Part shown: piece after piece, positions 1 through 12,164 of the stretch
Numbering within the stretch: the stretch's first letter is position 1
How the letters are laid out: every line of letters starts with the position of its first letter
Virus record (IMG/VR): IMGVR_UViG_3300009529_002109
Location: 1-20,744 of that record
Length of the DNA: 20,744 nt
Source: a virus
Strand: one strand, 5' to 3'
Position numbers and translations under genes: made by a program
Notes under the pieces: generated by a model
Databases searched by the model: none
Told to the model about the DNA's origin: nothing
Seen by the model: only the letters and a program-made list of their open reading frames with translations

Positions 1-1
1 C

Positions 2-1051
2 GTCTGGAAGGTAGCGGCTCGTAACGAGTGGACGGAGCGCGTTAAGCGAGCTTATGTCACACTTGACGACGACTCTACTCCCTCCTTCGACATGAAGAAC
101 TACGGCTGGGTCGAAACCAAGGAACTGACCGAAGCGGTTGGTGCTGATGGAGGCTTTACAGTCTTCCCAGAGCAGCGTCCCAGCCTCTTTATGCTCACCG
201 AGTTCCAGCGCCTCGTTCGAGAGCGCGCACTGGTCCTTCCGATGAAGGCTAGAGAGGTACACTTCCCGACGCTTGATCAGACCGGAAGTACTTCAGGGGT
301 CGCGAACCTCTACGGTGGCGTCATCCCGAAGTGGACTGAAGAGTCTGCCGAGAAGGAAGAAACGCAGCCCTCCTTCCGCCAGCTGAAGCTTATCGCTCAC
401 AAGCTCATCGTCTACACGGAAGCTTCGGACGAGTTGATGGAAGATTCGGCGGTCGGTCTCGAAGCTCTGCTCAAGAAACTCTTCGGTGGTGCTATCAGCA
501 ACGAAGAGGAGTGGGCCTTCATCAATGGCACTGGCGCAGGCCAGCCACTGGGCATCACCGATCCAGGTTGCGGGGTCACGCTTCGACAGACTCGTGTCGC
601 TGCGAACGCGATCAGTATCGTGGACGTCTTTAACATGCTGTCGATCTTCATGGGAACTTCACCGATCTGGATTGCACATCAGAGCACGATGCCTCAGATT
701 CTTCAGCTGAACGGCCCTGCAGGGAACGCTTCCTACGTCTGGATCGGCAACGGTCGAGACGCGATGCCGACGACCTTGATGGGCTACCCAATCTACTTCA
801 TCGAGAACTGCCAGACCCTCGGCAGCGAAGGTGATCTGATCCTGTCCGACTGGAGCAAGTACGTGGTTGGAGATCGCAAGATCACGACCATTGACTCCAG
901 CAAGCACTTCAAGTTCCGGAACGACCTTACAGCCTGGCGAGGTGTGCATCGGGTAGGTGGGCGTCCGTGGCTATCAGCTCCCTTGACTCTGAGGGATGGT
1001 ACCACCCAGGTTAGTCCGTTCGTAATTCTGGATGACGCTGTAACCAGCTAA
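2..1051 (+). CDS. Major capsid protein, HK97 fold (5' end outside window)
   Basis: The reading frame is open from base 2, so the gene starts upstream; 349 codons and the stop are visible. The part seen carries hallmarks of HK97-type (gp5-like) capsid proteins: an ADGGF segment entering the core fold at about residue 49 of the visible part, an FPTLDQTGS strand, the EEWAFINGTGAGQPLGI segment typical of the P-domain, and a C-terminal half ending in RVGGRPWLSAPLTLRDGT. It would build the icosahedral shell by self-assembly. An in-frame ATG at 92 exists, but the coding frame continues before it and a capsid protein starting there would lack its N-terminal arm, so 92 is not the start. Isoleucine is written only ATC or ATT here, never ATA, which contrasts with the cassette downstream and suggests high expression. 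The family call is secure. Whether a scaffold or protease domain lies upstream cannot be seen. Confidence 0.93.
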   Translation, partial: VWKVAARNEWTERVKRAYVTLDDDSTPSFDMKNYGWVETKELTEAVGADGGFTVFPEQRPSLFMLTEFQRLVRERALVLPMKAREVHFPTLDQTGSTSGVANLYGGVIPKWTEESAEKEETQPSFRQLKLIAHKLIVYTEASDELMEDSAVGLEALLKKLFGGAISNEEEWAFINGTGAGQPLGITDPGCGVTLRQTRVAANAISIVDVFNMLSIFMGTSPIWIAHQSTMPQILQLNGPAGNASYVWIGNGRDAMPTTLMGYPIYFIENCQTLGSEGDLILSDWSKYVVGDRKITTIDSSKHFKFRNDLTAWRGVHRVGGRPWLSAPLTLRDGTTQVSPFVILDDAVTS

Positions 1052-1078
1052 TCCTTGTAACGCTGACGGATCTTCAAG

Positions 1079-1142
1079 CAGCCAGGGGTCGACTCGTCCG
1101 CTAAACTTTACCCTAAGCGGAGAGAAGTTGGCCCCTGAGCTG
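1079..1142 (+). promoter_or_regulatory. Long imperfect inverted repeat in the capsid-gene 3' spacer
   Basis: In the 122-base spacer after the capsid gene, CAGC plus CAGGGG (1079-1088) can pair with CCCCTG, a bulged A, and GCTG (1132-1142). A second short stem, CCGCT (1098-1102) with AGCGG (1116-1120), is nested inside. No run of T follows, so it does not look like an intrinsic terminator. It could be an RNA structure in the polycistronic message that protects the capsid transcript end or spaces translation of the next gene. The pairing is read directly from the bases; the function is inference. Confidence 0.4.
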
Positions 1143-1161
1143 AGAGCTAATCAGGACTCAC

Positions 1162-1169
1162 AAGGAGGT
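1162..1169 (+). promoter_or_regulatory. Strong ribosome binding site of the capsid-accessory gene
   Basis: AAGGAGGT lies four bases before the ATG at 1174. It is a near-perfect match to the anti-Shine-Dalgarno sequence and fixes that start codon. It is one of the strongest sites in the window, consistent with an abundant virion component. Confidence 0.8.
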
Positions 1170-1173
1170 AGCA

Positions 1174-1617
1174 ATGTCGTACACCGAACGCTTTACTGAG
1201 GTTAATCTACCAGCTGGTGTGTGGTACCCTATCGAGAAGGTGCCAGCAACATATACGTCAGACTGGATGCTTATGAGCAACTATCAGCGGTTCATCGCGG
1301 TTATGCTCGTAGGTGTCATCGCTGCCGGCGGCACGGTCGACTTGAAGCTTGAGCAGGATGACGTCGGAGACGGCTCCAACACGAAGGACATCTCGGGTAA
1401 GTCGATCACCCAGCTCACGCAGGCTGGAGGTGATGGAGACGATCTGGTTGGCATCGAGCTCAAGACGGAAGAGATGGACGTGGATGGAGGGTTCAAGTAC
1501 GTCCGGCTTAACCTTGTCGTAGCCGTAGGCAACGCGTTCATCTCCGCACTGCCGCTGCGGTTCATCGCGAACTATCCCCCAGTACCGACGACTGTCTGGG
1601 AGGAAATCGTCGACTAG
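1174..1617 (+). CDS. Putative capsid-accessory (decoration/stabilisation) protein
   Basis: A 147-residue protein encoded directly after the major capsid gene with a very strong ribosome binding site. It has no signal peptide or membrane segment. Its middle (about residues 61-115) follows a pattern I associate with small phage proteins encoded next to capsid genes: QDD.GDG..KDI.GK.ITQLTQ, then an acidic loop, then ELKTEEMDVDGGFKYVRL. The predicted character is beta-rich. Position and apparent strong expression argue for a virion protein that binds the capsid surface, such as a cement or decoration protein. Isoleucine is never ATA here, as in the capsid gene. If the neighbouring cassette modifies the virion, this protein and the capsid protein are natural acceptor candidates. 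The role is inferred from context, not from a recognised domain. Confidence 0.6.
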   Translation: MSYTERFTEVNLPAGVWYPIEKVPATYTSDWMLMSNYQRFIAVMLVGVIAAGGTVDLKLEQDDVGDGSNTKDISGKSITQLTQAGGDGDDLVGIELKTEEMDVDGGFKYVRLNLVVAVGNAFISALPLRFIANYPPVPTTVWEEIVD

Positions 1618-1657
1618 CTCTGACGACTTAGTATACGAGCACACGAGACGTTAACCT

Positions 1658-1704
1658 GGTAGGGGAGGGGCTCTTCCTTCGGCTTCTCCCTTACCTTCTA
1701 ATTG
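1658..1704 (+). terminator. Terminator-like hairpin after the capsid genes
   Basis: GGTAGGGGAG (1658-1667) pairs with CTCCCTTACC (1686-1695) over ten positions with a single G-T wobble. The interior GGGC...GCTT may extend the stem by further G-C and G-T pairs. TTCTAATTG follows, a weak T-rich tail. The element sits between the capsid genes and the accessory cassette, where attenuation would lower cassette expression relative to capsid. The stem is clear; the poor T-tract makes real termination uncertain, and it may act only as a partial terminator or an RNA processing or stability element. Confidence 0.45.
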
Positions 1705-1722
1705 CTCAGAAGATGAGGTAAC

Positions 1723-2367
1723 ATGGCAAGGACTTGGGTACAGGCCCTAGTAGTTATCAATAGACACGACGAACTTGGAGCTCCCATAAGGCACTATAAG
1801 GGTGACTGGTTCCCCTGCAGGGGGAGAGAGCTAGCACAACTTCTATCACAAAGTAAGGTAGCTCTGCCAGGTCATTCTCATCCAGTCCAAACAGCTCAAG
1901 TCGGTGAGGTTGGTATCGTTACCGAGAGTGCCTCGACCGCCTTGAAGGGAGCTAAATGCGAGATCTCCTACGTTCCTGGGCTAACCCTGCCCTATGAGAA
2001 GACGCTGATCTACAGAGATGGACCGATCAGACCTGAACTTATACCAGTAGCCTTTGGGCTGCTAGATTCATGGGAGCTGCTGGTCCCGTTATGGACCTTC
2101 AGCGAAGACGCAACGATGATCGGTACCGAGAAGGATAGAGCTCTAACGCGTGAAGTTATCGGAGAGCTTCGCGTACCAGTGTATGACACGCGGCAACTGT
2201 ATGCCCTTCGGTGCCCTGCCGTAGAACGGCTCTTCAAAACCTGGGAGGTAGAGAAGGATAAGCTACCTGAGGGAGATGAACGGCTCGCATTCTTACGGGC
2301 CCTATATGTAACTCCGATGCTGATTCTAGCTTTACCTCCTAGCTGGTCGGTGAAAGATGCCCTCTAA
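1723..2367 (+). CDS. Protein of unknown function, first gene of the cassette
   Basis: A 214-residue soluble protein whose ATG is preceded by a GAGGT site at 1715-1719. I do not recognise the family. The N-terminal half (residues about 8-50) has a short strand followed by HYKGDWFPCRGRELAQLLSQ. This resembles a Y.pGD....A..Ll pattern also seen in the small protein at 11844-12164 of the tail module. The C-terminal half is rich in Leu, Pro and Trp and has no obvious catalytic motif. It overlaps the following glycosyltransferase by 11 bases, so the two are probably translationally coupled. It may be an adaptor, acceptor or virion protein served by the cassette. ATA codons appear here, unlike in the capsid genes, marking a change of codon use at this boundary. 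Confidence 0.7.
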   Translation: MARTWVQALVVINRHDELGAPIRHYKGDWFPCRGRELAQLLSQSKVALPGHSHPVQTAQVGEVGIVTESASTALKGAKCEISYVPGLTLPYEKTLIYRDGPIRPELIPVAFGLLDSWELLVPLWTFSEDATMIGTEKDRALTREVIGELRVPVYDTRQLYALRCPAVERLFKTWEVEKDKLPEGDERLAFLRALYVTPMLILALPPSWSVKDAL

Positions 2368-3064
2368 ATCATCGTATGAGTATTATCAGCCTGAAGGAGT
2401 ATGCTTCGTGGCCTATGGAGCTCCAGCTCTTAGAGAAGTTGGACATTCTCTGCTGAGGCTCAAGAAGATGGCACCAGATCTTCCAGTAGCCCTTATATGT
2501 GACGAACCAACGCCCTACACTGGGATAAAGCAGATTTACCTAAAAGATCGGAGTTACGGAGCGCGATGGGCCAAGCTGAATCTTGATACACTAACGCCCT
2601 TCGAGCGAACGCTCTACTTGGATGCTGATACGCGAGTAATGTCTCGAGATATCGTCCAAGGGTTCGAAATACTGAAAGAGGGCTGGGATCTTGTCATAGT
2701 TCCCTCCCAGAACCAGGGTAAGGACCTCTTCAGCCATCTGGACCGTACAGAGAGAGAAGAGACGCTTGCGAGCCTCTGGAATCCGAGACCCTTGCAGCTT
2801 CAGGCCGGCGTGATGTGGTTTAATCTCACTACAGAAACGTTAGGTTCCCCTAGCGCGTCTGGCACTCCTGGTACGTCTAAAGAACGGGTTCACAAGTTCT
2901 TCGAGCTTTGGAGAGCTGAATGGGAGAAGTACGAGAGGCATGATCAGGCAGCCCTAATCAGGGCCCTGGAAGAGTCTAGCCTTCGAATCTGGCTACTTGG
3001 ACACGAGTACAACAGTCGTCACGGTAAGGTTATCGAGCACTTATTCGGAAGGGCTAAGTTATGA
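2357..3064 (+). CDS. GT-A fold glycosyltransferase-like protein
   Basis: A 235-residue protein with a nucleotide-diphospho-sugar transferase (GT-A) layout. The N-terminal strand GVCFVAYG at 14-21 starts the nucleotide-binding half. The acidic metal-binding motif YLDADT (Asp89 and Asp91) follows a helix containing RWAKLNL, as in GT8-like enzymes. LQAGVMWFN at 148-156 resembles the acceptor-side segment after the DxD motif, and HDQAAL at 195-200 is the usual late DQ signature. It would transfer a sugar from a nucleotide-sugar donor; donor and acceptor cannot be read from sequence. It is a close relative of the C-terminal half of the next gene: both have FF.LW..EW....(H/R)DQ.AL.RAL. It overlaps that gene by four bases (ATGA). 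The family is well supported, the substrate unknown. Confidence 0.8.
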   Translation: MPSKSSYEYYQPEGVCFVAYGAPALREVGHSLLRLKKMAPDLPVALICDEPTPYTGIKQIYLKDRSYGARWAKLNLDTLTPFERTLYLDADTRVMSRDIVQGFEILKEGWDLVIVPSQNQGKDLFSHLDRTEREETLASLWNPRPLQLQAGVMWFNLTTETLGSPSASGTPGTSKERVHKFFELWRAEWEKYERHDQAALIRALEESSLRIWLLGHEYNSRHGKVIEHLFGRAKL

Positions 3065-4731
3065 AAGTCGTAGTCGTTTGCCAGAACTATGCGAAGGATC
3101 GGGTACTTCCGAGATATGCTCGTTATCTTGCCGAGGGCAATGGCTGGGACTTATCCATGAGGGCTCTCGTAGGCTATGACATTAACTACTACATGGCCTA
3201 CTTCGACCATCAAAAGAACAAAGACTTCAAGGGTCGAGTTGCGGCCTACTTTACACATAGGGAAGAAGGTAAGAAGGGCGATCTCTACGACCAGGTAGCA
3301 GAAAAGGTCTGGTTAAGGTTAGCAATGAACCAGGGGCAGCTTCGGCATCTGAGAGAGTCTGGACCCTCGATTGCGCCGACCCTTCCACTTGAAAGGGACA
3401 CATTTACACTGCGGTCTAGTAAGACCCTGCTAAAGGATAGCGAGAGACCGGTACTAGGGTTCAGCGGGTTCGTCTATGGTAGCGGCAGGAAAGGTGAGCA
3501 TCTCGCTAATCTCCTGACACAGGAATTCGGTAAGCATGCAACCTTCAGGGCTTCTGGTAGGGGATGGCCTTGCATCACTAAGATGTATAACTGGATATAC
3601 CTACCAGACTTCTATAAGTCCTTGGACTTATACATCTGTACCGCGTCAGTAGAGGGCGGTCCAATGACGACCTTGGAGGCGCTCTCGACAGGTATACCTG
3701 TAGTCATTCCAGAAGACGTCGGAATCCATCCAGAGCTACCAGACATACCAGGAATCTACAAATATCAGACAGGTAACTATAGATCGCTTTCGGATGCTGT
3801 TGATAGGGCGCTCGCTAAGCTCGGGAAGCATAACAGAGCAGATCTGCGAGAGTCAGTCACCAAGTACAGTGTCGAGGCGTTCTGCGAAGAGACACGAACC
3901 TACTTTGATGAGAACCTATACGGAACGTCGCAGGTTCAGGCTGAGGCTGAAGTAAGACCCAAGTGGCCAGGTAAGTCAGGGATATACCTAGTTGCATTTG
4001 GAGAGCAATCGAGGCGGTGCGCGGAAAAGTGCATCGCTGCTTGTAGACAGTATCTTCCAGGTGTACCAATCGCCCTGTGTTCAAACGAGCCGCTCGATGC
4101 AGGCGAAGATCTCTATATCTTCCAGAAGGACAAGGATATCGGAGGTCGTATCGCTAAGCTTAAAGCATACGACCTCACTCCAGAAGATTGGGAGTACGTC
4201 CTGTATCTCGATGCAGATACGGAGCCGGTTGAGGACTTCAGCTTCCTCTTCGAGACCCTTCAGAAGGGCTGGGAAGTTGTGATCTGTAAGGACATGGATA
4301 GGTATTCAGTCGCTAAGCTGATGATGAAAGGTGACAACCGGCCTGAGTCGGAAGCAACCTGGTTGTTAATGGGTACTGACGAGACTCTCCAGTACAACGG
4401 AGGCGTATTCGCCTTCAGGCGTAATGATAGGGTTAAGCACTTCTTTACACTTTGGCAGGAAGAATGGCAGCGCTGGGCCCAGAGAGATCAGGGAGCGCTT
4501 CTACGAGCACTCTACACGCAACCCTTGAAGTTGTTCGTACTTGGGAACCAGTGGAATGCAAGTGATCGCTATCCTGCCCCTGTCGGTAAAGTGGCAATAT
4601 GGCACCACAACGTCGCAGCTAGACGCTGGGCGGGCAAGATTCGAGGTCGTCTAGATGGAACGGATGCTTGGAGTAAGGTCGCAGAATGGGAAGCGTCGCG
4701 TGGGAAGGTATCTCCGAGGGGGACGATCTAA
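3061..4731 (+). CDS. Two-domain glycosyltransferase: GT-B (GT4-like) fused to GT-A
   Basis: A 556-residue fusion. Residues 1-285 resemble a GT-B enzyme of the GT4 type with a shortened N-terminal lobe. The C-terminal lobe starts near LGFSGFVYGSGRKGEHL and holds SVEGGP at 196-201, with Glu198 and Glu206 forming an EX7E motif in the donor site, then GIPVV. After a linker at about 286-305 comes a GT-A domain (306-525) with YLDADT (Asp384, Asp386), YNGGVFAF and RDQGAL (475-480), paralogous to the protein encoded just upstream. The C-terminal WHHNVAARRWAG fits a closing HxH-like segment. One polypeptide could add two different sugars in sequence. It starts at an ATGA overlap and ends in a TAATG overlap, so it is embedded in a coupled operon. 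Both domains look intact. Donors and acceptor are unknown. Confidence 0.85.
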   Translation: MKVVVVCQNYAKDRVLPRYARYLAEGNGWDLSMRALVGYDINYYMAYFDHQKNKDFKGRVAAYFTHREEGKKGDLYDQVAEKVWLRLAMNQGQLRHLRESGPSIAPTLPLERDTFTLRSSKTLLKDSERPVLGFSGFVYGSGRKGEHLANLLTQEFGKHATFRASGRGWPCITKMYNWIYLPDFYKSLDLYICTASVEGGPMTTLEALSTGIPVVIPEDVGIHPELPDIPGIYKYQTGNYRSLSDAVDRALAKLGKHNRADLRESVTKYSVEAFCEETRTYFDENLYGTSQVQAEAEVRPKWPGKSGIYLVAFGEQSRRCAEKCIAACRQYLPGVPIALCSNEPLDAGEDLYIFQKDKDIGGRIAKLKAYDLTPEDWEYVLYLDADTEPVEDFSFLFETLQKGWEVVICKDMDRYSVAKLMMKGDNRPESEATWLLMGTDETLQYNGGVFAFRRNDRVKHFFTLWQEEWQRWAQRDQGALLRALYTQPLKLFVLGNQWNASDRYPAPVGKVAIWHHNVAARRWAGKIRGRLDGTDAWSKVAEWEASRGKVSPRGTI

Positions 4732-5327
4732 TGATAGGGGTTAGATCAGCAGTTTACTATCCTAGCAGTTCGGGTTGCTCGAGGGCTGGCCAGAAAGCCT
4801 TCAAGCGTAGCGAACATATCTCACGCCAGATGTTACCGTATCAGGCAGTACTCCTATACGACCTAATGGCTCAGTACAACGAGCCTGGTAACGTTATTCT
4901 TGAGATAGGTACGAGGGCAGGGTTCAGCGCTTCGATGATAGCTCTAGCAGCTCCAGAGGCTAGTATCATTACCCTAGAACCAGAGAAGCTTCGAGTAAAG
5001 CAGGCAAGAAGCAATCTAGAGCATCTACCAAACATCTGGGTAGTGAAGGAACTTTCGTGGAACTACCTGAACTTCTACGTAGGTGAGCCGATCTCGGCGA
5101 TCTACGTAGATGGGGATCACAAGCGCGTTGCGAAGGATATTCCTTGGTTCTACAAGTTGAAGGTCGAAGGGTTGATGCTCTTCCATGACTATACGATGAA
5201 GAGCTCGCCTCCTGTCGTTCGAGAAGTGGATGCTCTAGCTGCTTTGGTTGGGAGGCCGTTAGACATTCGGCTCATCGACAGTAACGGAGTAGGTATGGCG
5301 GGCCTGTACCGTAGAGAGGGTGATTAG
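4731..5327 (+). CDS. Class I SAM-dependent methyltransferase (Methyltransf_24-like), copy A
   Basis: A 198-residue Rossmann-fold methyltransferase. Motif I is VILEIGTRAGFSAS at 55-68, followed by the acidic strand end TLEPEK at about 81-86. VDGDHKRVAKD at 126-136 and FHDY at 151-154 are typical of the methyltransferase group that modifies sugars and small molecules next to glycosyltransferases. I place the start at the ATG of the TAATG overlap with the fused glycosyltransferase. GAGGGGG at 4716-4722 stands eight bases before it. An in-frame ATG at 4686 would add 15 residues buried in the upstream gene and has no site. It is a paralog of the next gene, sharing EIGTR.G.SAS, VDG.H..VA.D.PWFYKLK and a C-terminal GMAG..RR. 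The likely role is O-methylation of a sugar, inferred from context. Confidence 0.82.
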   Translation: MIGVRSAVYYPSSSGCSRAGQKAFKRSEHISRQMLPYQAVLLYDLMAQYNEPGNVILEIGTRAGFSASMIALAAPEASIITLEPEKLRVKQARSNLEHLPNIWVVKELSWNYLNFYVGEPISAIYVDGDHKRVAKDIPWFYKLKVEGLMLFHDYTMKSSPPVVREVDALAALVGRPLDIRLIDSNGVGMAGLYRREGD

Positions 5328-6121
5328 TGATCATTAACTCTCGAACCTACCCTCTCTTTGTAGCGCCTGGTAGCCGAAGAGGTCTTCAGGTTGAGTATCT
5401 TGAGGTTAACATTCGGCTTGACGCTAAAGAAGTAGCAGACTGGCCCATGCGCGTTAAGCCTCAGGGGATCTTGAAGTTCAGGTACAACAACCTAGAACCC
5501 TGGCGGAAGTGGGACGTAATAGGCGATAAAACCTGGCGTAACCCTGTCAAGACGTTTACAGAGGAGGAACTTAGACGAAGCTACCCAGTTCCAAATTGCT
5601 TTGATAGGGGCGTGCCAGCTAGTGGAGTGCTTCCGTATCAGGATGGCGTTCTCAGGCACTTTGCACGACGAGCAAACTATCCCTCAGGGCGAATCCTAGA
5701 GATTGGGACTCGGCTCGGTCACAGTGCATCTATTATGGCTCAGGCGGCTTCTCACTGCCAGGAGATTATAACGATCGAGCCCTATGAAGATCGCGTCGAG
5801 CAGGCTAGAAAGAATCTTGAGCCCTGGCCATACGTTAACGTAGTGCACGATAAGTCTTGGGAATATCTTAAGACGTACCAGGGCGAGCCGTTTGATCTAG
5901 TCTTCGTAGATGGGAACCATAGGTACGTAGCTCACGACAATCCTTGGTTCTACAAGTTGAAGGAAGCTGGCTGGATCTTGTACCATGATTGGTCTACCTG
6001 GGGATGCTGGCACGTTGTTGAAGCGGTCGAGATGATGAGCCGACATCTAAAGCGTCGTCCGGACTTTGAGCTCGTAGACACAAACCAAAAAGGAATGGCA
6101 GGGTTTAGGCGCAATGTCTAG
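5327..6121 (+). CDS. Class I SAM-dependent methyltransferase (Methyltransf_24-like), copy B with N-terminal extension
   Basis: A 264-residue protein starting with GTG in a TAGTG overlap; GAGAGGGT just before gives the ribosome site. The first 95 or so residues (strand-rich, with many Trp and Arg) have no counterpart in the shorter paralog upstream and no family I recognise. Residues 105-264 form the methyltransferase: motif I ILEIGTRLGHSAS at 123-135, TIEPYEDRVEQARKNL, VDGNHRYVAHD at 194-204, His220-Asp221, and a C-terminal GMAGFRR. A 23-base stretch at 5941-5963 is identical to 5141-5163 of the upstream paralog, which suggests tandem duplication or later gene conversion. The extra domain may set acceptor choice. 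The methyltransferase call is firm; the substrate is not known. Confidence 0.82.
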   Translation: MIINSRTYPLFVAPGSRRGLQVEYLEVNIRLDAKEVADWPMRVKPQGILKFRYNNLEPWRKWDVIGDKTWRNPVKTFTEEELRRSYPVPNCFDRGVPASGVLPYQDGVLRHFARRANYPSGRILEIGTRLGHSASIMAQAASHCQEIITIEPYEDRVEQARKNLEPWPYVNVVHDKSWEYLKTYQGEPFDLVFVDGNHRYVAHDNPWFYKLKEAGWILYHDWSTWGCWHVVEAVEMMSRHLKRRPDFELVDTNQKGMAGFRRNV

Positions 6122-6728
6122 TGAAAGTGAAGATACGTTCCGGTTCCTTGGAAAGCAGTACGAGTACTTTTCGCATCCGTATAATCGGGCTCGCGATAAT
6201 ATGCGTACGCTTGAGGTGCCGATAATCCGAAGGATTCTGTATCAGCAGCCAGTAGCTGCTAGGATCCTAGAGATAGGGAATGTACTCTCCCACTACTTGC
6301 CCTTAGGGTCGGTTCCTACCTGGGACGTTCTCGATCTCCAAGAAGGTCCGATACATAAGGACTTACGAACCTGGGAAGCGAAGCAGCGTTACGATCTGAT
6401 AGTTAGCATATCGACGTTAGAGCATATAGGGTTCGGAAAGTTTGACGATACTCTAGGTGCTACAGATTACTCAGCCATCATCCTGAAGATTCGCTCATTG
6501 CTAGCTAAAGGAGGTAAGGCCTACATAACCATACCTACGGGGTACAATCCGATACTCGACAAGCATCTGTTCTATGAGGCGCTAGACGTGGAGGTATATG
6601 GATGTATGGAGCGAGTAGATGATAAAGGTACTTGGGAAGAATGTTCCTTGTGGGACGCACTCAAAAAGCCCTACCGGAAAGATTCCTATCCCTGGAGTAA
6701 AGCAATGGTCGTTTTGCTATGCGACTAA
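6114..6728 (+). CDS. Class I methyltransferase-like protein with EIGNVLSHY motif
   Basis: A 204-residue protein. ILEIGNVLSHY at 51-61 replaces the usual glycine-rich SAM loop, and VSISTLEHIGFGK (98-110) plus a LLAKGGKAYITIPTGYNP segment (129-146) match the later methyltransferase strands. This version of the fold, with Asn-Val-Leu-Ser-His in the SAM loop, occurs in proteins of bacterial surface-glycan clusters as I know them. Here it lies between clear methyltransferases. The ATG at 6114 overlaps the upstream gene by eight bases and has only a weak ribosome site, so translation is probably coupled. The second glycine of the SAM loop is absent, so activity should not be assumed. The fold call is good; a catalytic role is less sure. 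Confidence 0.72.
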   Translation: MSSESEDTFRFLGKQYEYFSHPYNRARDNMRTLEVPIIRRILYQQPVAARILEIGNVLSHYLPLGSVPTWDVLDLQEGPIHKDLRTWEAKQRYDLIVSISTLEHIGFGKFDDTLGATDYSAIILKIRSLLAKGGKAYITIPTGYNPILDKHLFYEALDVEVYGCMERVDDKGTWEECSLWDALKKPYRKDSYPWSKAMVVLLCD

Positions 6729-7183
6729 ATCTTGGCTGCGGAAGTGCGCCCATCGAAGACGGGATAAACGTTGATCTAGTTAAGCATTCTGAGCACGTGG
6801 ACTTTGCTTGGGACCTTAACGAACTACCGTGGCCCTGGGAAGATGAGCAGTTTGATGGAATCATAGCTAAGGCAGTTTTCGAGCACCTGGATCATAACCT
6901 ACTTGTCAGCGTCAACGAATGCTGGCGACTTCTTAAGCCCGGTGGCCATCTGTATTTGAAGCTGCCCTACTGGAATAATGAGATAAGCTACAACGATCCA
7001 ACTCACCAGTGGTGGTACGGAGTTCGTGTGTTTGAGTACTTTGATCCAGAGATGCCTCTAGGTAAGAAGTACTACTGGTACACGCCGTACAAGTGGAGAC
7101 TGGTTAAGCCTGGAGAGCTGAACTCTGGTAGTACGAGCATTCATGGTACCCTAGAGAAGATAGTTTATGATTCAGGAGAATGA
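6719..7183 (+). CDS. Small class I SAM methyltransferase (Methyltransf_11-like), copy A
   Basis: A 154-residue minimal methyltransferase. Motif I is LNLGCGS at 3-9, right at the N-terminus, with an acidic residue at the end of the second strand (NVDL, Asp19). PWPWEDEQFDGI (37-48), AVFEHLDH (52-59) and ECWRLLKPGG (67-76) complete the usual Methyltransf_11 order. YNDPTHQW (91-98) and a YYWYTPYKW block follow. The protein is short for the family because no N-terminal cap precedes motif I. It overlaps the upstream gene by ten bases and the sulfotransferase by 17. The gene after the sulfotransferase encodes a paralog sharing LNLGCG, PWPW, FEHL, ECWR.L and DPTH.W. Probably it methylates a sugar or an attached group; this is inferred from the cassette. 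Confidence 0.83.
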   Translation: MRLNLGCGSAPIEDGINVDLVKHSEHVDFAWDLNELPWPWEDEQFDGIIAKAVFEHLDHNLLVSVNECWRLLKPGGHLYLKLPYWNNEISYNDPTHQWWYGVRVFEYFDPEMPLGKKYYWYTPYKWRLVKPGELNSGSTSIHGTLEKIVYDSGE

Positions 7184-7967
7184 TCTTACCAGGGACCCGC
7201 AGAGCTTCATTATAGTGGCATCTGTACGAAGCGGCGGTACGATGCTCGCTCATGCTCTGGATAGTCATTCGCTGATATTCTGCACAAGAGGTGAGCCCTT
7301 ACACAGCCGAAGTGTGTGGCATAGAGCTAAGTTGTCGAACCTAGAGATCCTCGAGCTTTTAACTTCACAGACGGGATTCCAGGCCAGCGGACTTAAGGTC
7401 CAGTGCGGACAGTTCATGTATCCGAGCGTAACTCATTTCCTAGATACGAGACGGCCGAAGATAATTAGGGTACAGCGCCAGAATCTACTAAGGCAGGCTG
7501 TTAGCGTACGAATAAACACGCTAGTGCGAAAGCGATACCTTAAGATCGTACCGCAGCATACCTTTACAGAGGTCGAGAAGCATCAGCTTGAGATCACTCC
7601 AGTTTCCATCCTTAAGATAGCTAGGGAGCTTCGAAAGGTAGATCGTCTCGTTAATGATCGCCTCAGTGCTTATGAGGGTCTAGTGTATCAGACGACCTAC
7701 GAGCAGCTAACGGATCAAGCGGTTATAGGAGCAGGAACAGGTTCGTGGTTAGCCACCGAACTTCCAAGTAAGCTGTCAACCCAGCTCTGCCGATTTCTAG
7801 GGGTTAACAGCCTTCCAATTTTCACGTACCTTCAAAAGATTAACTTTCAGCCTCTCAAAGAGATACTGCGTAACTGGGAGGAAATAAGGTTAGCGATCGA
7901 GCAGGAAGAGCCGTTGTCAGAGGCCGATCCTATTATCGAGCTAAAGAAGGAACTTGCGCTCTTATGA
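7167..7967 (+). CDS. PAPS-dependent sulfotransferase (Stf0/NodH-like)
   Basis: A 266-residue P-loop protein. ASVRSGGTMLAHAL at 18-31 is the 5'-phosphosulfate binding loop of sulfotransferases, with RSGGT in place of the ATP-type Walker sequence. RVQRQNLLRQAVS at 101-113 is the 3'-phosphate binding motif, with the conserved Arg and Ser. GEP at 42-44 gives an acidic residue after the loop. The C-terminal KINFQPLKEILRNWEEIRLAI matches the helix found at the end of Stf0 and NodH-type carbohydrate sulfotransferases. Such enzymes move sulfate from PAPS to a hydroxyl group of a sugar. The start ATG overlaps the upstream methyltransferase by 17 bases, and the end overlaps the next one by four (ATGA). 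No PAPS synthesis gene is seen, so the donor would have to come from the host. The family call is strong; a glycan acceptor is inference. Confidence 0.82.
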   Translation: MIQENDLTRDPQSFIIVASVRSGGTMLAHALDSHSLIFCTRGEPLHSRSVWHRAKLSNLEILELLTSQTGFQASGLKVQCGQFMYPSVTHFLDTRRPKIIRVQRQNLLRQAVSVRINTLVRKRYLKIVPQHTFTEVEKHQLEITPVSILKIARELRKVDRLVNDRLSAYEGLVYQTTYEQLTDQAVIGAGTGSWLATELPSKLSTQLCRFLGVNSLPIFTYLQKINFQPLKEILRNWEEIRLAIEQEEPLSEADPIIELKKELALL

Positions 7968-8422
7968 GTACCTGTTTACTAAATCTGGGCTGTGGTCTAG
8001 ATATTCGAGATGGCTGGGTGAATCATGATATCTCTCAGCACGATAAGCGGATAGCCGTCGTGCATAACCTCAACGTGAGACCCTGGCCCTGGAAGCCTAG
8101 CACCTTTGACAGAGTCGATGCCATCAGTGTATTTGAGCATCTCGAGATAGATCTGATAAAGGTAATGGACGAGTGCTGGCGGATTCTCAAGGGCAGTGGC
8201 GCACTCCACATAAAGTACCCTCTACTGACCTCGCCCTTCGTTCGAGATGATCCTACTCATAGATGGTTCTGGAGCGAGAAGGTTCTCGACTTCGTAATCG
8301 CAGGGACGAAGTACGAGCAAGGTTGTCCCTACTACACAAAGTACAAGTGGAATCTTATGCAGCGGACGGTAGGTCCGAAGAATCGTAATTGCTGGGCGCA
8401 GCTCTCACCTAGGGGAAAATGA
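7964..8422 (+). CDS. Small class I SAM methyltransferase (Methyltransf_11-like), copy B
   Basis: A 152-residue paralog of the methyltransferase on the other side of the sulfotransferase. LLNLGCGLD at 5-13 is motif I, then NHDIS with the acidic ribose-binding position, PWPW at 40-43, VFEHLE at 56-61, ECWRILKG at 70-77 and DDPTHRW at 95-101. A YYTKYKW block aligns with YYWYTPYKW of copy A. The glycine pair after the ECWR helix reads KGSG rather than KPGG. It starts in an ATGA overlap with the sulfotransferase and is the last member of the overlapping run. After its stop, 46 bases without a gene lead to the next ribosome site. The substrate is unknown; different acceptor positions on one glycan would explain two copies. 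Confidence 0.82.
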   Translation: MSTCLLNLGCGLDIRDGWVNHDISQHDKRIAVVHNLNVRPWPWKPSTFDRVDAISVFEHLEIDLIKVMDECWRILKGSGALHIKYPLLTSPFVRDDPTHRWFWSEKVLDFVIAGTKYEQGCPYYTKYKWNLMQRTVGPKNRNCWAQLSPRGK

Positions 8423-8452
8423 CTTCTTGCAGATTCCCTAGAGACACAACCT

Positions 8453-8460
8453 AGGAGGAG
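8453..8460 (+). promoter_or_regulatory. Strong ribosome binding site of the kinase-like/methyltransferase gene
   Basis: AGGAGGAG stands eight bases before the ATG at 8469. The preceding cassette genes rely on overlaps, so this site shows that the last cassette gene is translated independently. CCTAG at 8437-8441 could pair with CTAGG at 8451-8455 and partly hide the site, but five base pairs are too few to claim control. Confidence 0.7.
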
Positions 8461-8468
8461 TACAAGAC

Positions 8469-9605
8469 ATGAAGTTTTATCCGAACATCACTGTAAAGCC
8501 TGATTTGCTAGACAGAGATAGCCTGAGCCGCTTCGAGAAAGGCTCGTATTCTATCATCTTGAATACACCTAGCGTAGAGTCCCGTCTGAAGGCGACCTAC
8601 GGACGCAAAGGTTTGTGCCTGAAGGTCCTGAAGGGCATGACTGAGGGGAGAGAAGTCCGTGTCGGCAAGTCTGAACTTCTATACGGAAAGGTGTCTCTTC
8701 TACACGCAACACTAATACAGAATCGCTTTGCCAGGAAGGGGCTCTCACCAAGAGTCTTCGGCTGGGCGGTGGTGAACGGTCTTGTAGCGCAGGTAATGCC
8801 CTATATAGTCAGAACCAGAGACCCAGCACCAGAGGCTCACGACAAGCGCGTGCAGGAAGCCCTAGGCGTGCTGGGAGAGCTTGATCTTGTGAACCTCGCA
8901 CCTGAACCAGATCTCGGAGTTAACAACTGGAGAGGCGGAAAGCTTGTCGACTTCAGCCATTTCGAGTTTAGAGACTTCGAAGGTTACTTGGAGAATCTAG
9001 ACGTTCGGGCCAGGACTCGTCGAGGGGTCGTACTGGATAAGGCCTACCAGGCTGTCCCGCCAACCACCGCCGTGCCGAGTGAGCACGCAGATAGAGAGCC
9101 TGCGGAGATCCTAGAGATCGCAGGGACCAGAGATAACGGCTTAAGGGTCAAGAACCTTCAGCTCGAGAAGATTCGCTGGAAGGGGAAGAACGTTCTCGAC
9201 GTAGGTTGCAACCTTGGGGCATACAGCCGATACGCGGTAGATGCTGGAGCCCGCAGGGTCATAGGGGTTGATCGTATGGGTGACCTAGCCTTCGAGGTCA
9301 ACAACGTCCTAGGTTATTGGAACCTAGACGTTGTGCAGACTAACTTGCCAGGATACTTCAAGAAAGTGAAGATGCCCAAGATCGATTACGTCTTCATGAT
9401 GGCCTTCCACAACTACGTAGGTGGTCTTGACGAGGCCTTGAAGTTCGTGTTCCCTGTCGTGAAGACGCTACTGATCCTAGAGAGTCATGGCGGGGAAGAT
9501 CAGGCAGAGTGCGAAGAGGTTCTTAGAAAGTACTTCTCTCGGATAGATTACCTTGGCTTCGTGAAGGATCCACAGGTTCGCCATCAGTGGCACTGCTGGG
9601 TCTAA
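8469..9605 (+). CDS. Kinase-like N-terminal domain fused to a class I methyltransferase
   Basis: A 378-residue two-part protein. Residues 1-185 resemble the phosphotransferase/protein-kinase fold: LCLKVLKG (Lys52) suits the nucleotide-binding lysine, LSPRVFGWAVVNGLVAQVMPYI (92-113) looks like the inter-lobe strand and hinge, and GVNNW...LVDFSHFEF (150-167, Asp161) looks like the metal-binding DF segment. The classical HRD loop is not clear, so kinase activity is uncertain. Residues 225-378 form a methyltransferase with VLDVGCNLGAYS at 242-253 and VIGVDRM ending in the acidic position. Such a layout suggests successive phosphorylation and methylation, or a kinase-like domain used only for binding. 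It has its own strong ribosome site and closes the cassette before the connector genes. The methyltransferase half is sure, the kinase half moderately so. Confidence 0.75.
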   Translation: MKFYPNITVKPDLLDRDSLSRFEKGSYSIILNTPSVESRLKATYGRKGLCLKVLKGMTEGREVRVGKSELLYGKVSLLHATLIQNRFARKGLSPRVFGWAVVNGLVAQVMPYIVRTRDPAPEAHDKRVQEALGVLGELDLVNLAPEPDLGVNNWRGGKLVDFSHFEFRDFEGYLENLDVRARTRRGVVLDKAYQAVPPTTAVPSEHADREPAEILEIAGTRDNGLRVKNLQLEKIRWKGKNVLDVGCNLGAYSRYAVDAGARRVIGVDRMGDLAFEVNNVLGYWNLDVVQTNLPGYFKKVKMPKIDYVFMMAFHNYVGGLDEALKFVFPVVKTLLILESHGGEDQAECEEVLRKYFSRIDYLGFVKDPQVRHQWHCWV

Positions 9606-9633
9606 GCGAGTTAGGCGAAGAGCGATTGAACAC

Positions 9634-9638
9634 AGGAG
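9634..9638 (+). promoter_or_regulatory. Ribosome binding site that sets the connector start
   Basis: AGGAG lies six bases before the ATG at 9645. The in-frame TTG at 9642 would leave only three bases, which is too close, so the ATG is the likely start. Confidence 0.6.
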
Positions 9639-9644
9639 ACCTTG

Positions 9645-10319
9645 ATGGCATCCTACGCTACAGTAGCAGAGCTCAAAGTTAGAATCCAGATCGAATCAGT
9701 TCTCTCAGCAGCAGTAACAACTACCTATGAGGAGATCTTGGAAGCTATATCTCGTAAGATCGACGGCTTCTGTCGCAGACCGATGGGCTTCTTGGCCCCT
9801 GCCGTAGCTGAGCTTCGCTACATAGGGTGCGATGGCGGAGCTACAATTGAGATACCTGAGTGTGTAGAGATCACGACCGTCTCAGTTAAGAACATCTATA
9901 CCGATACCACCTATGTAGACTGGACAACTCCAACCTCTCAAATCTCCGGGGATGGAGACTGGTTCGCTTACGCAGGTAGCAAAGGCAATCCGCTCTTTGG
10001 TCGAACACCTTACAGGTTCCTGCAGGTTGACCCGAACGGTGACTACTCATACTTCACGAAGAGTGAGGGGCTCCCGACCGTTAAGTTGCTCTTCCGCCCA
10101 GGCTATGCGACTACGACACCTCCAACGATTCAAGAGGCTTGTCTGGCCCAGGCTGCTATTCTAATCAAGCGGTACGAGTCCTCGATGGATTCGAGCTTGG
10201 CAAACTTTGATCTCGGAGTGATCTCGATGAAGATTCGCCAGACAGCTCTTACCCGAGACGTACGAGAGCTTCTGGTAGATGCAGGTTACGTCCTACCGCT
10301 GATGGCGGGACAGTGGTAA
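9645..10319 (+). CDS. Head-tail connector (adaptor) protein, gp6/gp15-like
   Basis: A 224-residue protein with the layout of phage head-tail adaptors (HK97 gp6, SPP1 gp15 type). The N-terminus is helical: YATVAELKVRIQ, then a helix ISRKIDGFCRRPMGF that corresponds to the usual ID.YC.R segment. A long beta region about residues 55-150 follows, and a C-terminal helix ACLAQAAILIKRYESS with a region ending VRELLVDAGYV closes it. It would form a ring under the portal. Position after the cassette and before a gp10-like gene restores the normal head-to-tail order, showing that the cassette was inserted into a conserved module. The insertion at 55-150 makes it longer than minimal adaptors. Its last seven bases overlap the next gene. 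Confidence 0.75.
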   Translation: MASYATVAELKVRIQIESVLSAAVTTTYEEILEAISRKIDGFCRRPMGFLAPAVAELRYIGCDGGATIEIPECVEITTVSVKNIYTDTTYVDWTTPTSQISGDGDWFAYAGSKGNPLFGRTPYRFLQVDPNGDYSYFTKSEGLPTVKLLFRPGYATTTPPTIQEACLAQAAILIKRYESSMDSSLANFDLGVISMKIRQTALTRDVRELLVDAGYVLPLMAGQW

Positions 10320-10795
10320 CCTACGTACCGATCTTCGAGGTTGAGCTCCTAGGAGATGAAGAGATCCTTAAGAAGTTTGAGGAGCTCTCAGAGTTCCACA
10401 AGGGCGGACGGCTCGAAGAGGCTTGGGAGCGCGTTATCGAACTTGTCGCTGATGCAGCCCGAGATTTAGCACCTGAATGGGAGCGAACCTTGCTCAGCTC
10501 CATCGAGGAGGGAGAGATCCTGATCGACGCAGAAAACGTTGAGGGAGAAGTCTATACAGATTCACCTTACGCTGCAGCGCAAGAGCGCGGGACCGATCCG
10601 TACTTCCCGAACTTAGATAACATATCAGCTTGGGCAGAAGCTCATGACATGTCTCCCTGGGCATTAGCCCTAGCGATTGCTGCCAACGGCTTACCCGAAC
10701 GACAATTCATGGAGAAAGCTCTCACCGAGAACGAGCTAGAGATCGTTGAGCTTATCGGACAGGCCATAGGTCAGGTCCTAGAGGAGCGGTACTAA
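10313..10795 (+). CDS. HK97 gp10-like tail completion protein
   Basis: A 160-residue protein starting with GTG inside the end of the connector gene. It has the signature of the HK97 gp10-like family: an N-terminal helix, DAARDLAPEWERTLLSSI, a beta part ending in YAAAQERGTDPY (about 86-97), and PERQFMEKALTEN near the C-terminus. Members join the head to the tail or complete the tail end. A charged run, rich in Glu, marks the first 60 residues. It is followed by the terminator gene through a TAATG overlap. The family is recognised from the E.GT and R.F...A motifs; the exact place in the particle is not shown by the sequence. Confidence 0.75.
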   Translation: MVTYVPIFEVELLGDEEILKKFEELSEFHKGGRLEEAWERVIELVADAARDLAPEWERTLLSSIEEGEILIDAENVEGEVYTDSPYAAAQERGTDPYFPNLDNISAWAEAHDMSPWALALAIAANGLPERQFMEKALTENELEIVELIGQAIGQVLEERY

Positions 10796-11244
10796 TGGCA
10801 GTAACCATCGCTGCAATCTGCGACGGAATAGAGTCTACCCTAGCCCTGGCTACAGGAATCAATACTGGTAAGTCTTACGACGAGATCACCGAAGGCGTAC
10901 CGGCTAGGGACTGTCCTAGGATACATGTGTACCCTGACACGATAGGTCCCGACGACAGGACACGGACTGAGCGAACTACTTTCCAAGCCGGCCTTCAGCA
11001 GCTCGACGTCTCCGTGTTCGTAGATGTGTATGCTCGGCAACGCTCACAACTACCAGAAGACATGAAGGCAGCTGTAACGACACTCGACAACCTAATCACG
11101 GTTCTCCAAGCCCAGGAGGTACCGCCGTTCTTCGGCGTGACAGGTATCAAGGCCTTTCGATGGTCCTGGAGACGTGCAGTGTTCCGATTAGGGAACGCTA
11201 AGTACATGGGCGGAAGATTTCTCATCGTTGCTAGAGTCTATTAG
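10795..11244 (+). CDS. Tail terminator-like protein
   Basis: A 149-residue protein between the gp10-like gene and the tail tube region, where siphoviruses encode the tail terminator (lambda gpU / HK97 gp11 position). It begins with a helix AAICDGIESTLALATGI, continues with PRIHVYPDTI, and has a strand QLDVSVFVDVYARQRSQLPEDMKAAVTTLDNLITVLQ. The strand-helix order, in which a strand ending VDVYA runs into a long helix, is typical of terminators. The C-terminal strands WSWRRAVFRL and YMGGRFLIVARVY finish the fold. It would form a hexameric ring that stops tail tube growth. No sequence hallmark is unique, so the call rests mostly on order, size and predicted fold. It starts in a TAATG overlap. 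Confidence 0.62.
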   Translation: MAVTIAAICDGIESTLALATGINTGKSYDEITEGVPARDCPRIHVYPDTIGPDDRTRTERTTFQAGLQQLDVSVFVDVYARQRSQLPEDMKAAVTTLDNLITVLQAQEVPPFFGVTGIKAFRWSWRRAVFRLGNAKYMGGRFLIVARVY

Positions 11245-11258
11245 CACCAGCGGAACTA

Positions 11259-11309
11259 GAAGGAGCCGTAGCCTTAGTAGAAGTAGCCGTAGCCTTAGTA
11301 GAAGGAGCG
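11259..11309 (+). repeat. 21-base direct tandem repeat (about 2.4 copies) ending in the ribosome site
   Basis: The unit spans 11259-11279, repeats at 11280-11300 with one change (GAAGGAG to GAAGTAG), and a third partial copy runs 11301-11309. The core GCCGTAGCCTTAGTA is identical in both full copies. GAAGGAG of the partial copy at 11301-11307 is the ribosome site for the ATG at 11314, and the first unit contains the same seven bases, so the repeat has duplicated a Shine-Dalgarno sequence. Slippage during replication is the simple origin; an effect on translation is possible. Confidence 0.85.
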
Positions 11310-11313
11310 AAGA

Positions 11314-11778
11314 ATGCCTAGTACCCTGATTGAGTTCATACTACAGTGCCTCCCATACCTCCTGAGCGGGGCATCTCTCTTCCTCCTCTACAAACAGAAT
11401 CGAAGGCTCAAGGTAGCAGAGGCAGGTAAGCTTGAGGCAGAGTCCGAGAAGGTTATGGCTGAGGTAGAGAACATTACAGTCTCTACCTTGAGAGAGGCGA
11501 TAAAGATCTTATCTGCTGAGAACTCTAGGTTAACTAAGGACGTTCAGGCCCTTAAGAAGACGCAGAGCGAGATGCAGTTAGCCTTCGACACAGCTGTAAA
11601 GAGCTTAGCAGCTGAAACAGACGCCCTCAGACGTAGGATACTTATCAAGCATGAAGGTATTGAGAAGCTCCTAAGGGGTATTTCTAGGCTCATTGCTCAG
11701 ATCCATCGCTTGGATCCTACTGAGGATCCAGACTGGTCACCGCCTAAGATAGAAGAGCTCCTAGGGCCTGCTGCGTAG
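11314..11778 (+). CDS. Small membrane-anchored coiled-coil protein of unknown function
   Basis: A 154-residue protein. Residues about 5-26 are a hydrophobic segment (FILQCLPYLLSGASLFLLY) followed at once by KQNRRLK, which predicts an inner-membrane anchor with the C-terminal part in the cytoplasm or, if the segment works as a signal anchor, outside. Residues 30-130 are a long helix with heptad-like Leu and Ile, Glu, Lys and Arg rich, most likely coiled coil. A Pro-rich tail ends in EELLGPAA. I recognise no family. Its place between the tail terminator and tail tube genes is unusual. It could be an i-spanin-like lysis protein, a membrane factor for assembly, or a minor virion protein. The ribosome site lies in a tandem repeat. 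No lipobox or cleavage site is visible. Confidence 0.65.
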   Translation: MPSTLIEFILQCLPYLLSGASLFLLYKQNRRLKVAEAGKLEAESEKVMAEVENITVSTLREAIKILSAENSRLTKDVQALKKTQSEMQLAFDTAVKSLAAETDALRRRILIKHEGIEKLLRGISRLIAQIHRLDPTEDPDWSPPKIEELLGPAA

Positions 11779-11843
11779 ATCTTCTTCGTCGCCCTGTGTA
11801 CAAGAATCGGGTGCGGGTAAGCGTGCCTTAGAGGGAGAAGGTA

Positions 11844-12164
11844 ATGTTATTCAGAGTGCATACGAATCTAGGTTTCACAAGTGGAATCCGCTACGTTCCA
11901 GGAGATATTGAGCCTCTCAAAGAGGTATCTGGGACTATTAGGCAGATTCTTCTAGCTCGAGGGGCCATCTCGAAGGTCCAGGCTCCGCCACTCCACATCC
12001 TTCCAGGTTGGAGGGATCGAGCGGAGCTATTTGAATCAGTGGGTATAACTGACGTAGATCAGCTCATCTGCGCTGATCTTCGTGAGGTGTCTGAGAAGAC
12101 GCAAGTACCATTGTCTACCCTTGTGTTGTATGTAAGCGTTGTTAAGCAGTTCTTAGTTCTCTAA
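11844..12164 (+). CDS. Small protein with helix-hairpin-helix-like C-terminus
   Basis: A 106-residue protein with GAGGGAG and AGAAGGT in front of its ATG. Residues 1-48 form a short beta-helix part, RYVPGDIEPLKEVSGTIRQILLARGA. Residues 53-106 (LPGWRDRAELFESVGITDVDQLICADLREVSEK) repeat the L.G....A..L...GI.....L......... pattern of helix-hairpin-helix / DUF4332-like domains, which often bind DNA or proteins. The Y.PGD...A..Ll pattern also appears in the first cassette gene. Encoded just before the tail tube gene, it may help connect head and tail or contact DNA at the portal end. The family similarity is my reading of the pattern; the role is unknown. Confidence 0.62.
   Translation: MLFRVHTNLGFTSGIRYVPGDIEPLKEVSGTIRQILLARGAISKVQAPPLHILPGWRDRAELFESVGITDVDQLICADLREVSEKTQVPLSTLVLYVSVVKQFLVL

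Follow-up and report, generated by a model that had tools for sequence, protein, structure and literature searches.

Glycosylation of phage virions is known from few isolates. In the actinobacteriophages Che8 and Rita, phage-encoded glycosyltransferases (GTs) are reported to attach glycans by covalent bonds to proteins of the capsid and the tail tube (Freeman et al. 2023, as cited in PMC11256854 and PMC12619734), and the virion glycans of Che8 have been associated with antibody shielding (as cited in PMC11256854); Maravista encodes two putative GTs, with their genes near the 3' end of the genome (PMC11256854). Protein A064R of the chlorovirus PBCV-1 combines two GT domains with a methyltransferase, and the capsid glycan of this virus is O-methylated (PMC7019647). 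Here we describe a locus in an IMG/VR virus record of 20,744 bases (IMGVR_UViG_3300009529_002109; this whole stretch is called the window below). Ten open reading frames (ORFs) at positions 1723-9605 fill the space between an HK97-type capsid gene, with the gene of a conserved head protein (P147), and the gene of a head-tail adaptor. We consider this cassette likely to be a phage-encoded, cytosolic virion-glycosylation locus with variable methyl, sulfo and phospho decoration, whose first protein, ORF1, docks the enzymes or is itself the acceptor.

The locus is like the actinobacteriophage systems in its phage-encoded GTs. It differs from them in that the space between capsid and connector holds the genes of three GT-fold core proteins and of variable methyltransfer, sulfotransfer and sugar-nucleotide enzymes, and in that a head protein bears a dead GT-A domain. 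With PBCV-1 it shares virus-encoded GTs and methyltransferase, and a model of ORF1 matches the capsid GT structure of A064R through its GT-A domain (Z 8.4). PBCV-1 is, however, a eukaryotic giant virus with other GT families and no sulfotransferase, and chlorovirus glycosylation genes are not embedded in a head operon. The first-pass annotation of the window placed a sulfotransferase with several methyltransferases beyond known systems. This is partly fair. Phage virion glycosylation and methylated chlorovirus capsid glycans are both known, but the open-access literature yielded no description of a cassette that lies within a head module and includes a sulfotransferase, a search that left subscription papers mostly uncovered and is no proof of novelty. 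The new elements are the fusion of a head protein to a dead GT and the sulfotransferase-bearing variable region, phage virion glycosylation itself being known.

The layout given by that annotation, nine overlapping genes and a further one with its own strong site, is present throughout. ORFs 1-9 overlap head to tail, and the tenth (8469-9605) starts 46 bases after the ninth and is preceded by a GGAGGAG site of its own, around position 8454. Together they encode ORF1 (a GT-A-like protein lacking a DxD motif), the glycosyltransferases GTA and GTF, a sulfotransferase-like protein and six methyltransferase domains, one of which is joined to a possible kinase. The count of two GT genes and six methyltransferase domains agrees with Pfam, with the correction that one gene, 3061-4731, holds two GTs (GT-B and GT-A). 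Pfam recognises a GT4 domain, two Methyltransf_24, one DUF268 and two Methyltransf_11 domains and the methyltransferase that ends the last gene; searched alone, neither the second gene (GTA) nor the sulfotransferase-like gene gives a significant match.

Conservation of this arrangement was assessed in viral contigs with searches seeded by GT, ORF1 or P147 rather than by the capsid, apart from the first four contigs, which were retrieved with the window capsid at 62-79% identity. Those four have the order major capsid protein (MCP), P147, ORF1, GTA, GTF, followed, where the contig continues, by a differing mix of enzymes. Neither GTA nor the sulfotransferase retrieved anything from viral contigs when used as a single query sequence, and alignments were needed: that of GTA (A1) retrieved at least 79 loci (117 relatives) and that of ORF1 50 loci. 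ORF1 and GTA profiles were built as mutually exclusive classes and all plus-strand ORFs were scanned, antisense ORF calling having made ORF1 appear missing in some contigs. GTA/GTF are present in at least 126 distinct IMG/VR contigs with the same layout, which places the cassette beyond chance. A capsid gene lies no more than 5 kb upstream of the GT core in 61 of the 65 contigs having at least 5 kb of upstream sequence, ORF1 follows P147 in 111 of 112 (the exception being L086), and the GTs precede the adaptor in all 38 contigs where an adaptor was recognised. The order capsid, GT, methyltransferase or sulfotransferase, connector is therefore strongly kept across public contigs, and among the relatives examined the cassette was not found unlinked from virion genes. 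It consists of a conserved core, ORF1-GTA-GTF, and variable downstream genes.

The premise that capsid and connector genes are normally adjacent is borne out by relatives lacking the cassette. The P147 search, which is independent of the GTs, added 40 distinct contigs, 28 with a cassette, 11 without and one that could not be assigned. Where the adaptor was recognised, the gap between P147 and adaptor measures 88-328 bp without the cassette, compared with 2,358-10,805 bp with it. Likewise, in the isolate Caulobacter phage TMCBR2 and in a Bradyrhizobium prophage the MCP gene is followed by one or two small genes and then the connectors. In six of the 11 cassette-less relatives the gene after P147 encodes a protein with the N-terminal domain of ORF1 (74-109 residues where the start is clear). 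The smallest cassette seen, with 2.4 kb from P147 to adaptor, holds only ORF1, GTA and one 263-residue protein lacking any Pfam or NCBIfam match (L017, 10597-11385).

The two enzymes of the core appear to be intact. GTA (2357-3064, plus strand, as are all features described here) is a GT-A glycosyltransferase of the glycogenin/GT8-like type with D89-A-D91 as its DxD motif. Its profile matches glycogenin-2 (E 1e-5), and Glyco_transf_8 (PF01501) matches 13 of 52 family members, the protein from the window alone giving no Pfam match. GTF (3061-4731) consists of a GT4 (GT-B) domain (PF00534, E 6e-7) and, C-terminal to it, a second GT-A domain, a paralogue of GTA with 34% identity to it. As in Che8-type systems, the phage GTs thus have intact catalytic motifs, with DxD in 88 of 88 GTA sequences and the PF00534 match for the GT4 domain. 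Dead key residues in most members, which would have spoken against the first-pass reading, were not seen for GTA, GT4 or the methyltransferases; only ORF1 is dead.

ORF1 (1723-2367) had been set apart from the glycan enzymes, wrongly, as it is a degenerate GT-A paralogue of GTA with an extra head-module domain. Pfam gives little indication of this, with a marginal match in one of 60 members (to a domain of unknown function, E 0.004) and none in the others. With hhalign, however, residues ~88-210 align with the part of GTA that runs from the DxD strand to its C-terminus, at 95% with five sequences on each side and, with deep alignments, at 99.2% and E 1e-19 for the single pair. An AlphaFold2 model (predicted local distance difference test, pLDDT, 92.7) shows a GT-A fold in residues 53-214 (~53-214 as a domain boundary), and every one of the best-matching solved structures is a GT-A enzyme (Z 8.7, 3.5 A over 151 residues, 9% identity). 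The claim of a GT-A fold rests on sequence homology and structure jointly, since Foldseek alone, run against the PDB, gave no E-value below 0.001. DxD is found in none of 77 ORF1 sequences, compared with 88 of 88 in GTA; ORF1 thus lacks the motif of an active metal-dependent GT-A glycosyltransferase and probably does not itself transfer sugar. A tentative model of self-glucosylation, as in glycogenin, is not put forward, since ORF1 showed no invariant tyrosine.

Residues 1-50 (~1-50) form a separate small domain in the model. Comparison with viral protein models gives matches to small phage proteins, including a 129-residue 'putative structural protein' of ArV1 (47 columns, 1.3 A). By length and name this corresponds to ArV1_010, which directly follows the ArV1 capsid gene; a 77-residue match from phiAxp-2 was assigned in the same way to a 77-residue gene two after the presumed capsid gene. 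The domain also aligns with the small protein of the cassette-less relatives, one phage isolate protein included, with a probability of 79% by hhalign; none of 30 controls with shuffled columns exceeded 0.9%. Homology to a 106-residue protein of the window (K106) was not supported, hhalign giving only 6%. On the simplest reading, ORF1 appears to derive from a small ancestral head protein that gained a GT-A paralogue, which then lost its activity, and it is a candidate docking scaffold or acceptor.

Docking by a GT-like protein has a bacterial precedent. GtfA and GtfB have the GT-B fold. They are the initiating pair of serine-rich-repeat adhesins, and the GT-like partner binds the acceptor (PMC6973325). 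The systems are alike in that further GTs vary between strains; they differ in that the bacterial proteins are secretion-linked, whereas ORF1 is of GT-A type and fused to a head-protein domain.

Downstream of the core, the enzymes vary. Among 106 proteins of closed cassettes, Pfam and NCBIfam recognise methyltransferases most often, then GT2, GT4 and nucleoside diphosphate (NDP)-sugar epimerases or dehydratases (GalE, PseB and LegB-like), along with polysaccharide-synthesis dehydratases, DegT aminotransferase, TylF and sulfotransferases. Judged by family assignment, the variable genes are typical surface-glycan enzymes. A nitroreductase-like protein, recognised by eye among methyltransferase and GT-like genes (L016, 9353-9946, the same contig as L005), is unusual for a glycan cassette.

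Phage GT genes often modify the host surface, and the cassette might be thought to alter host lipopolysaccharide (LPS), capsule or teichoic acid, bringing about serotype conversion or superinfection exclusion; its gene content does resemble O-antigen loci. We regard this as unlikely. No GtrA/GtrB-like or flippase-like membrane proteins are found, and a hydrophobic, predicted membrane segment rises above threshold in only one of 237 cassette proteins, with two segments in none. Moreover, neither the fixed place in the head operon nor the ORF1 fusion would be expected, and cassette prophages are rare, ORF1 being present in two metagenome-assembled genomes (MAGs) and in no other of ~1,190 sampled genomes. 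From the near-absence of membrane segments the pathway is therefore taken to be self-contained and cytosolic, which suits a particle that is put together and decorated in the cytosol but not lipid-linked surface glycans.

Five methyltransferases of the window are free-standing. The first (PF13578, Methyltransf_24, E 1.6e-8) is annotated at 4686-5327, but its true start is likely the ATG at 4731, in a TAATG overlap, giving 4731-5327. The second, at 5327-6121, is of the same family (PF13578, E 4e-14); the third, at 6114-6728, is of the DUF268 type (PF03269, E 5.5e-8) and has an atypical S-adenosylmethionine motif I. The fourth, at 6719-7183, is a short Methyltransf_11 protein (PF08241, E 5e-9), and the fifth, at 7964-8422 (PF08241, E 3e-5), is its paralogue. 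Between these two lies the sulfotransferase-like protein (7167-7967), with an RSGGT motif for the loop binding the 5' side of 3'-phosphoadenosine-5'-phosphosulfate and an R104/S113 3'-phosphate motif. Its assignment as a sulfotransferase, made earlier from the single protein, is weak at that level (Sulfotransfer_3, E 0.07) but gains from the family, in which Sulfotransfer_3 matches eight of nine members and Stf0 three of nine (E at most 0.05, best 8e-6) and R21, G23, R104 and S113 are invariant (alignment A7). That alignment proved too diverse for a contig scan.

The last gene (8469-9605) encodes KMT, a possible kinase-like N-terminal half joined to methyltransferase 6 (AlphaFold2 pLDDT 83.6). 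The assignment of the methyltransferase half is sound, with a match to WbdD at E 7e-7 and structural matches to WbdD (Z 14.6) and CmoB (Z 16.7). In the N-terminal half, K52 and D161-F are kept in all nine sequences (D161 is invariant and the next residue F in most), as would suit the kinase-like domain noted in the first pass. No kinase was matched among PDB sequences, however, and in the fold search the matches were taken up by the methyltransferase half; as the catalytic-loop Asp is not conserved, the label 'kinase' is unproven. WbdD is the kinase-methyltransferase that terminates chains of the Escherichia coli O9a O-antigen, with an N-terminal methyltransferase, then the kinase and a coiled coil (PMC3482155). 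KMT is also a single polypeptide with methyltransferase and possible kinase halves, located in a glycan locus, and the methyltransferase halves are alike; its domain order is reversed relative to WbdD, the methyltransferase being C-terminal, and no coiled coil is seen. It is a candidate WbdD-like chain terminator. A search with the KMT alignment matched only in L003, where the kinase-methyltransferase runs directly into the adaptor.

In the mechanism we propose, a head protein, or one close to the head, would receive a short glycan from GTA and the two-domain GTF; the five free-standing methyltransferases would O-methylate this glycan and the sulfotransferase would sulfate it. KMT, with its kinase and methyltransferase halves, may cap the glycan by analogy with WbdD, and ORF1 most likely brings GTA and GTF to the assembling head, or may carry the glycan itself. 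The reading of the cassette as virion-decorating, advanced in the first pass, finds partial support in the conserved capsid-GT-connector order, with the GT core just after MCP-P147 (61/65) and before the adaptor (38/38), and in ORF1, which joins a GTA-homologous domain to the domain of a small protein at the same locus in cassette-less relatives. That the virion carries a glycan, and that this masks the particle or aids adhesion, we infer. What the sequences show is the gene content, its conserved order and position, the core-and-variable structure, the loss of DxD and two-domain make-up of ORF1 and the predicted solubility of the enzymes; the acceptor, the chemistry of the glycan, the order of steps and the benefit, whether a surface altered towards host or environmental recognition or adhesion, are inferred from these.

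Two further targets are conceivable. Glycans occur on both capsid and tail tube subunits in mycobacteriophages (Freeman 2023, as cited in PMC12619734), and the cassette could decorate tail tube or fibre proteins and so tune receptor binding. We find this improbable, given that it adjoins capsid genes and that the N-terminal domain of ORF1 matches proteins near the MCP. Alternatively, the GTs and methyltransferases might decorate phage DNA bases against restriction. Thymidylate-synthase/hydroxymethylase-type proteins are the usual source of hydroxymethylated bases. DNA hypermodification with diverse glycans by virus-encoded GTs has been described (Pyle et al. 2024, as cited in PMC12619734), and 'DNA methyltransferase' families of PHROG weakly match the methyltransferases of the window. 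However, no thymidylate-synthase-like protein (PF00303) is found in any of 17 records of 47-73 kb (controls were positive; the records may be incomplete), and all 17 carry GTA, with nearly all hits confined to the cassette. The cassette is also devoid of DNA-metabolism genes, the GT paralogue carries a head protein domain, and sulfotransferases and NDP-sugar epimerases indicate a surface glycan, so that hypermodification of DNA seems very improbable. The solubility of the cassette proteins and the lack of a thymidylate-synthase-like enzyme in the 17 long records make both LPS conversion and DNA glucosylation less likely.

Several points nevertheless weigh against virion glycosylation. The cassette may lie where it does because its genes are expressed late, together with those of the capsid, and its position need not point to a capsid target. 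For the proteins of the window taken singly, the assignment as a sulfotransferase is weak and that as a kinase weaker still; sulfation and capping are not general, the sulfotransferase family being present in 24 and KMT in 11 of the 126 cassettes. Finally, GTA and ORF1 are absent from 50,697 phage records, so that no cultured member is known; neither these two nor the sulfotransferase was found in isolate phages. GTA occurs in two MAGs, one from Phycisphaerae and one from Anaerolineae, binned viral contigs being weak evidence of host, and the ~1,190 sampled genomes of three phyla held no further cassette besides these MAGs, which served as centres. The cassette region of the Phycisphaerae MAG contig (L124, 17932-19246) contains two proteins resembling sulfotransferases by eye (PRSGGK and TRCGGT motifs).

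The genes flanking the cassette are those of a head and connector module. The MCP gene (92-1051; PF05065, E 6e-37; phrog_10, E 3e-35) encodes an HK97-fold protein whose N-terminal part lies at or beyond the window start. In eight contigs (L034, L036, L045, L048, L066, L079, L083 and L085) the MCP genes encode 632-794 residues, 200-350 codons above the usual 440. P147 (1174-1617; phrog_28483, E 2.5e-27) has no Pfam family; it has relatives in 383 viral contigs, cassette-less phages included, is duplicated in L066, L154, L158 and L159 and is a candidate decoration protein or glycan acceptor. The head-tail adaptor (9642-10319; phrog_442, E 8e-5), also found after the cassette in L003 and in 38 of 38 contigs, marks the 3' boundary, beyond which lie neck (phrog_5), tail-terminator-like and tape-measure genes. 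Among these connector and tail genes, 11314-11778 encodes a 154-residue protein that is hydrophobic in a stretch near its N-terminus, probably includes a long coil and has no family match in other contigs.

Between P147 and the cassette, a hairpin of 15 pairs with a T-rich tail (1658-1695) is the only terminator-like site in positions 1-12000 and a candidate partial terminator or attenuator. Strong hairpins of differing sequence recur in the P147-ORF1 gap of most relatives (for example L011, L012, L045, L065 and L101), with a median folding z-score of -3.5 in 34 distinct relatives having a gap of at least 40 nt, compared with only -2.1 in the window itself. Such hairpins recur in the MCP-P147 gap too, which has a similar value, -2.9, in contrast to the gaps inside the cassette core (0.05 and -0.6). 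A partial terminator holding the enzymes below capsid levels is plausible; a protector of mRNA 3' ends is an alternative candidate role.

We tentatively propose, as a possible history, that a small head protein captured a GT copy that lost catalysis and now serves as on-capsid platform or acceptor for a glycan that is methylated, sulfated and sometimes given a phospho cap, relatives differing in 'capsid serotype'. The gene set and the fusion of a shell-associated protein to a dead enzyme copy suggest that these viruses build their own variable, decorated sugar coat. The locus is a core-plus-variable glycan system that a widespread uncultured lineage carries within its head operon, and it turns the question of why phages carry many GTs and methyltransferases into a testable one with a defined acceptor candidate, ORF1 or P147. 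If our reading is true, it would be a capsid counterpart, in phages, of bacterial O-antigen variation, possibly the first phage-encoded sulfated virion glycan, and a source of cytosolic, self-contained capsid-decorating enzymes.

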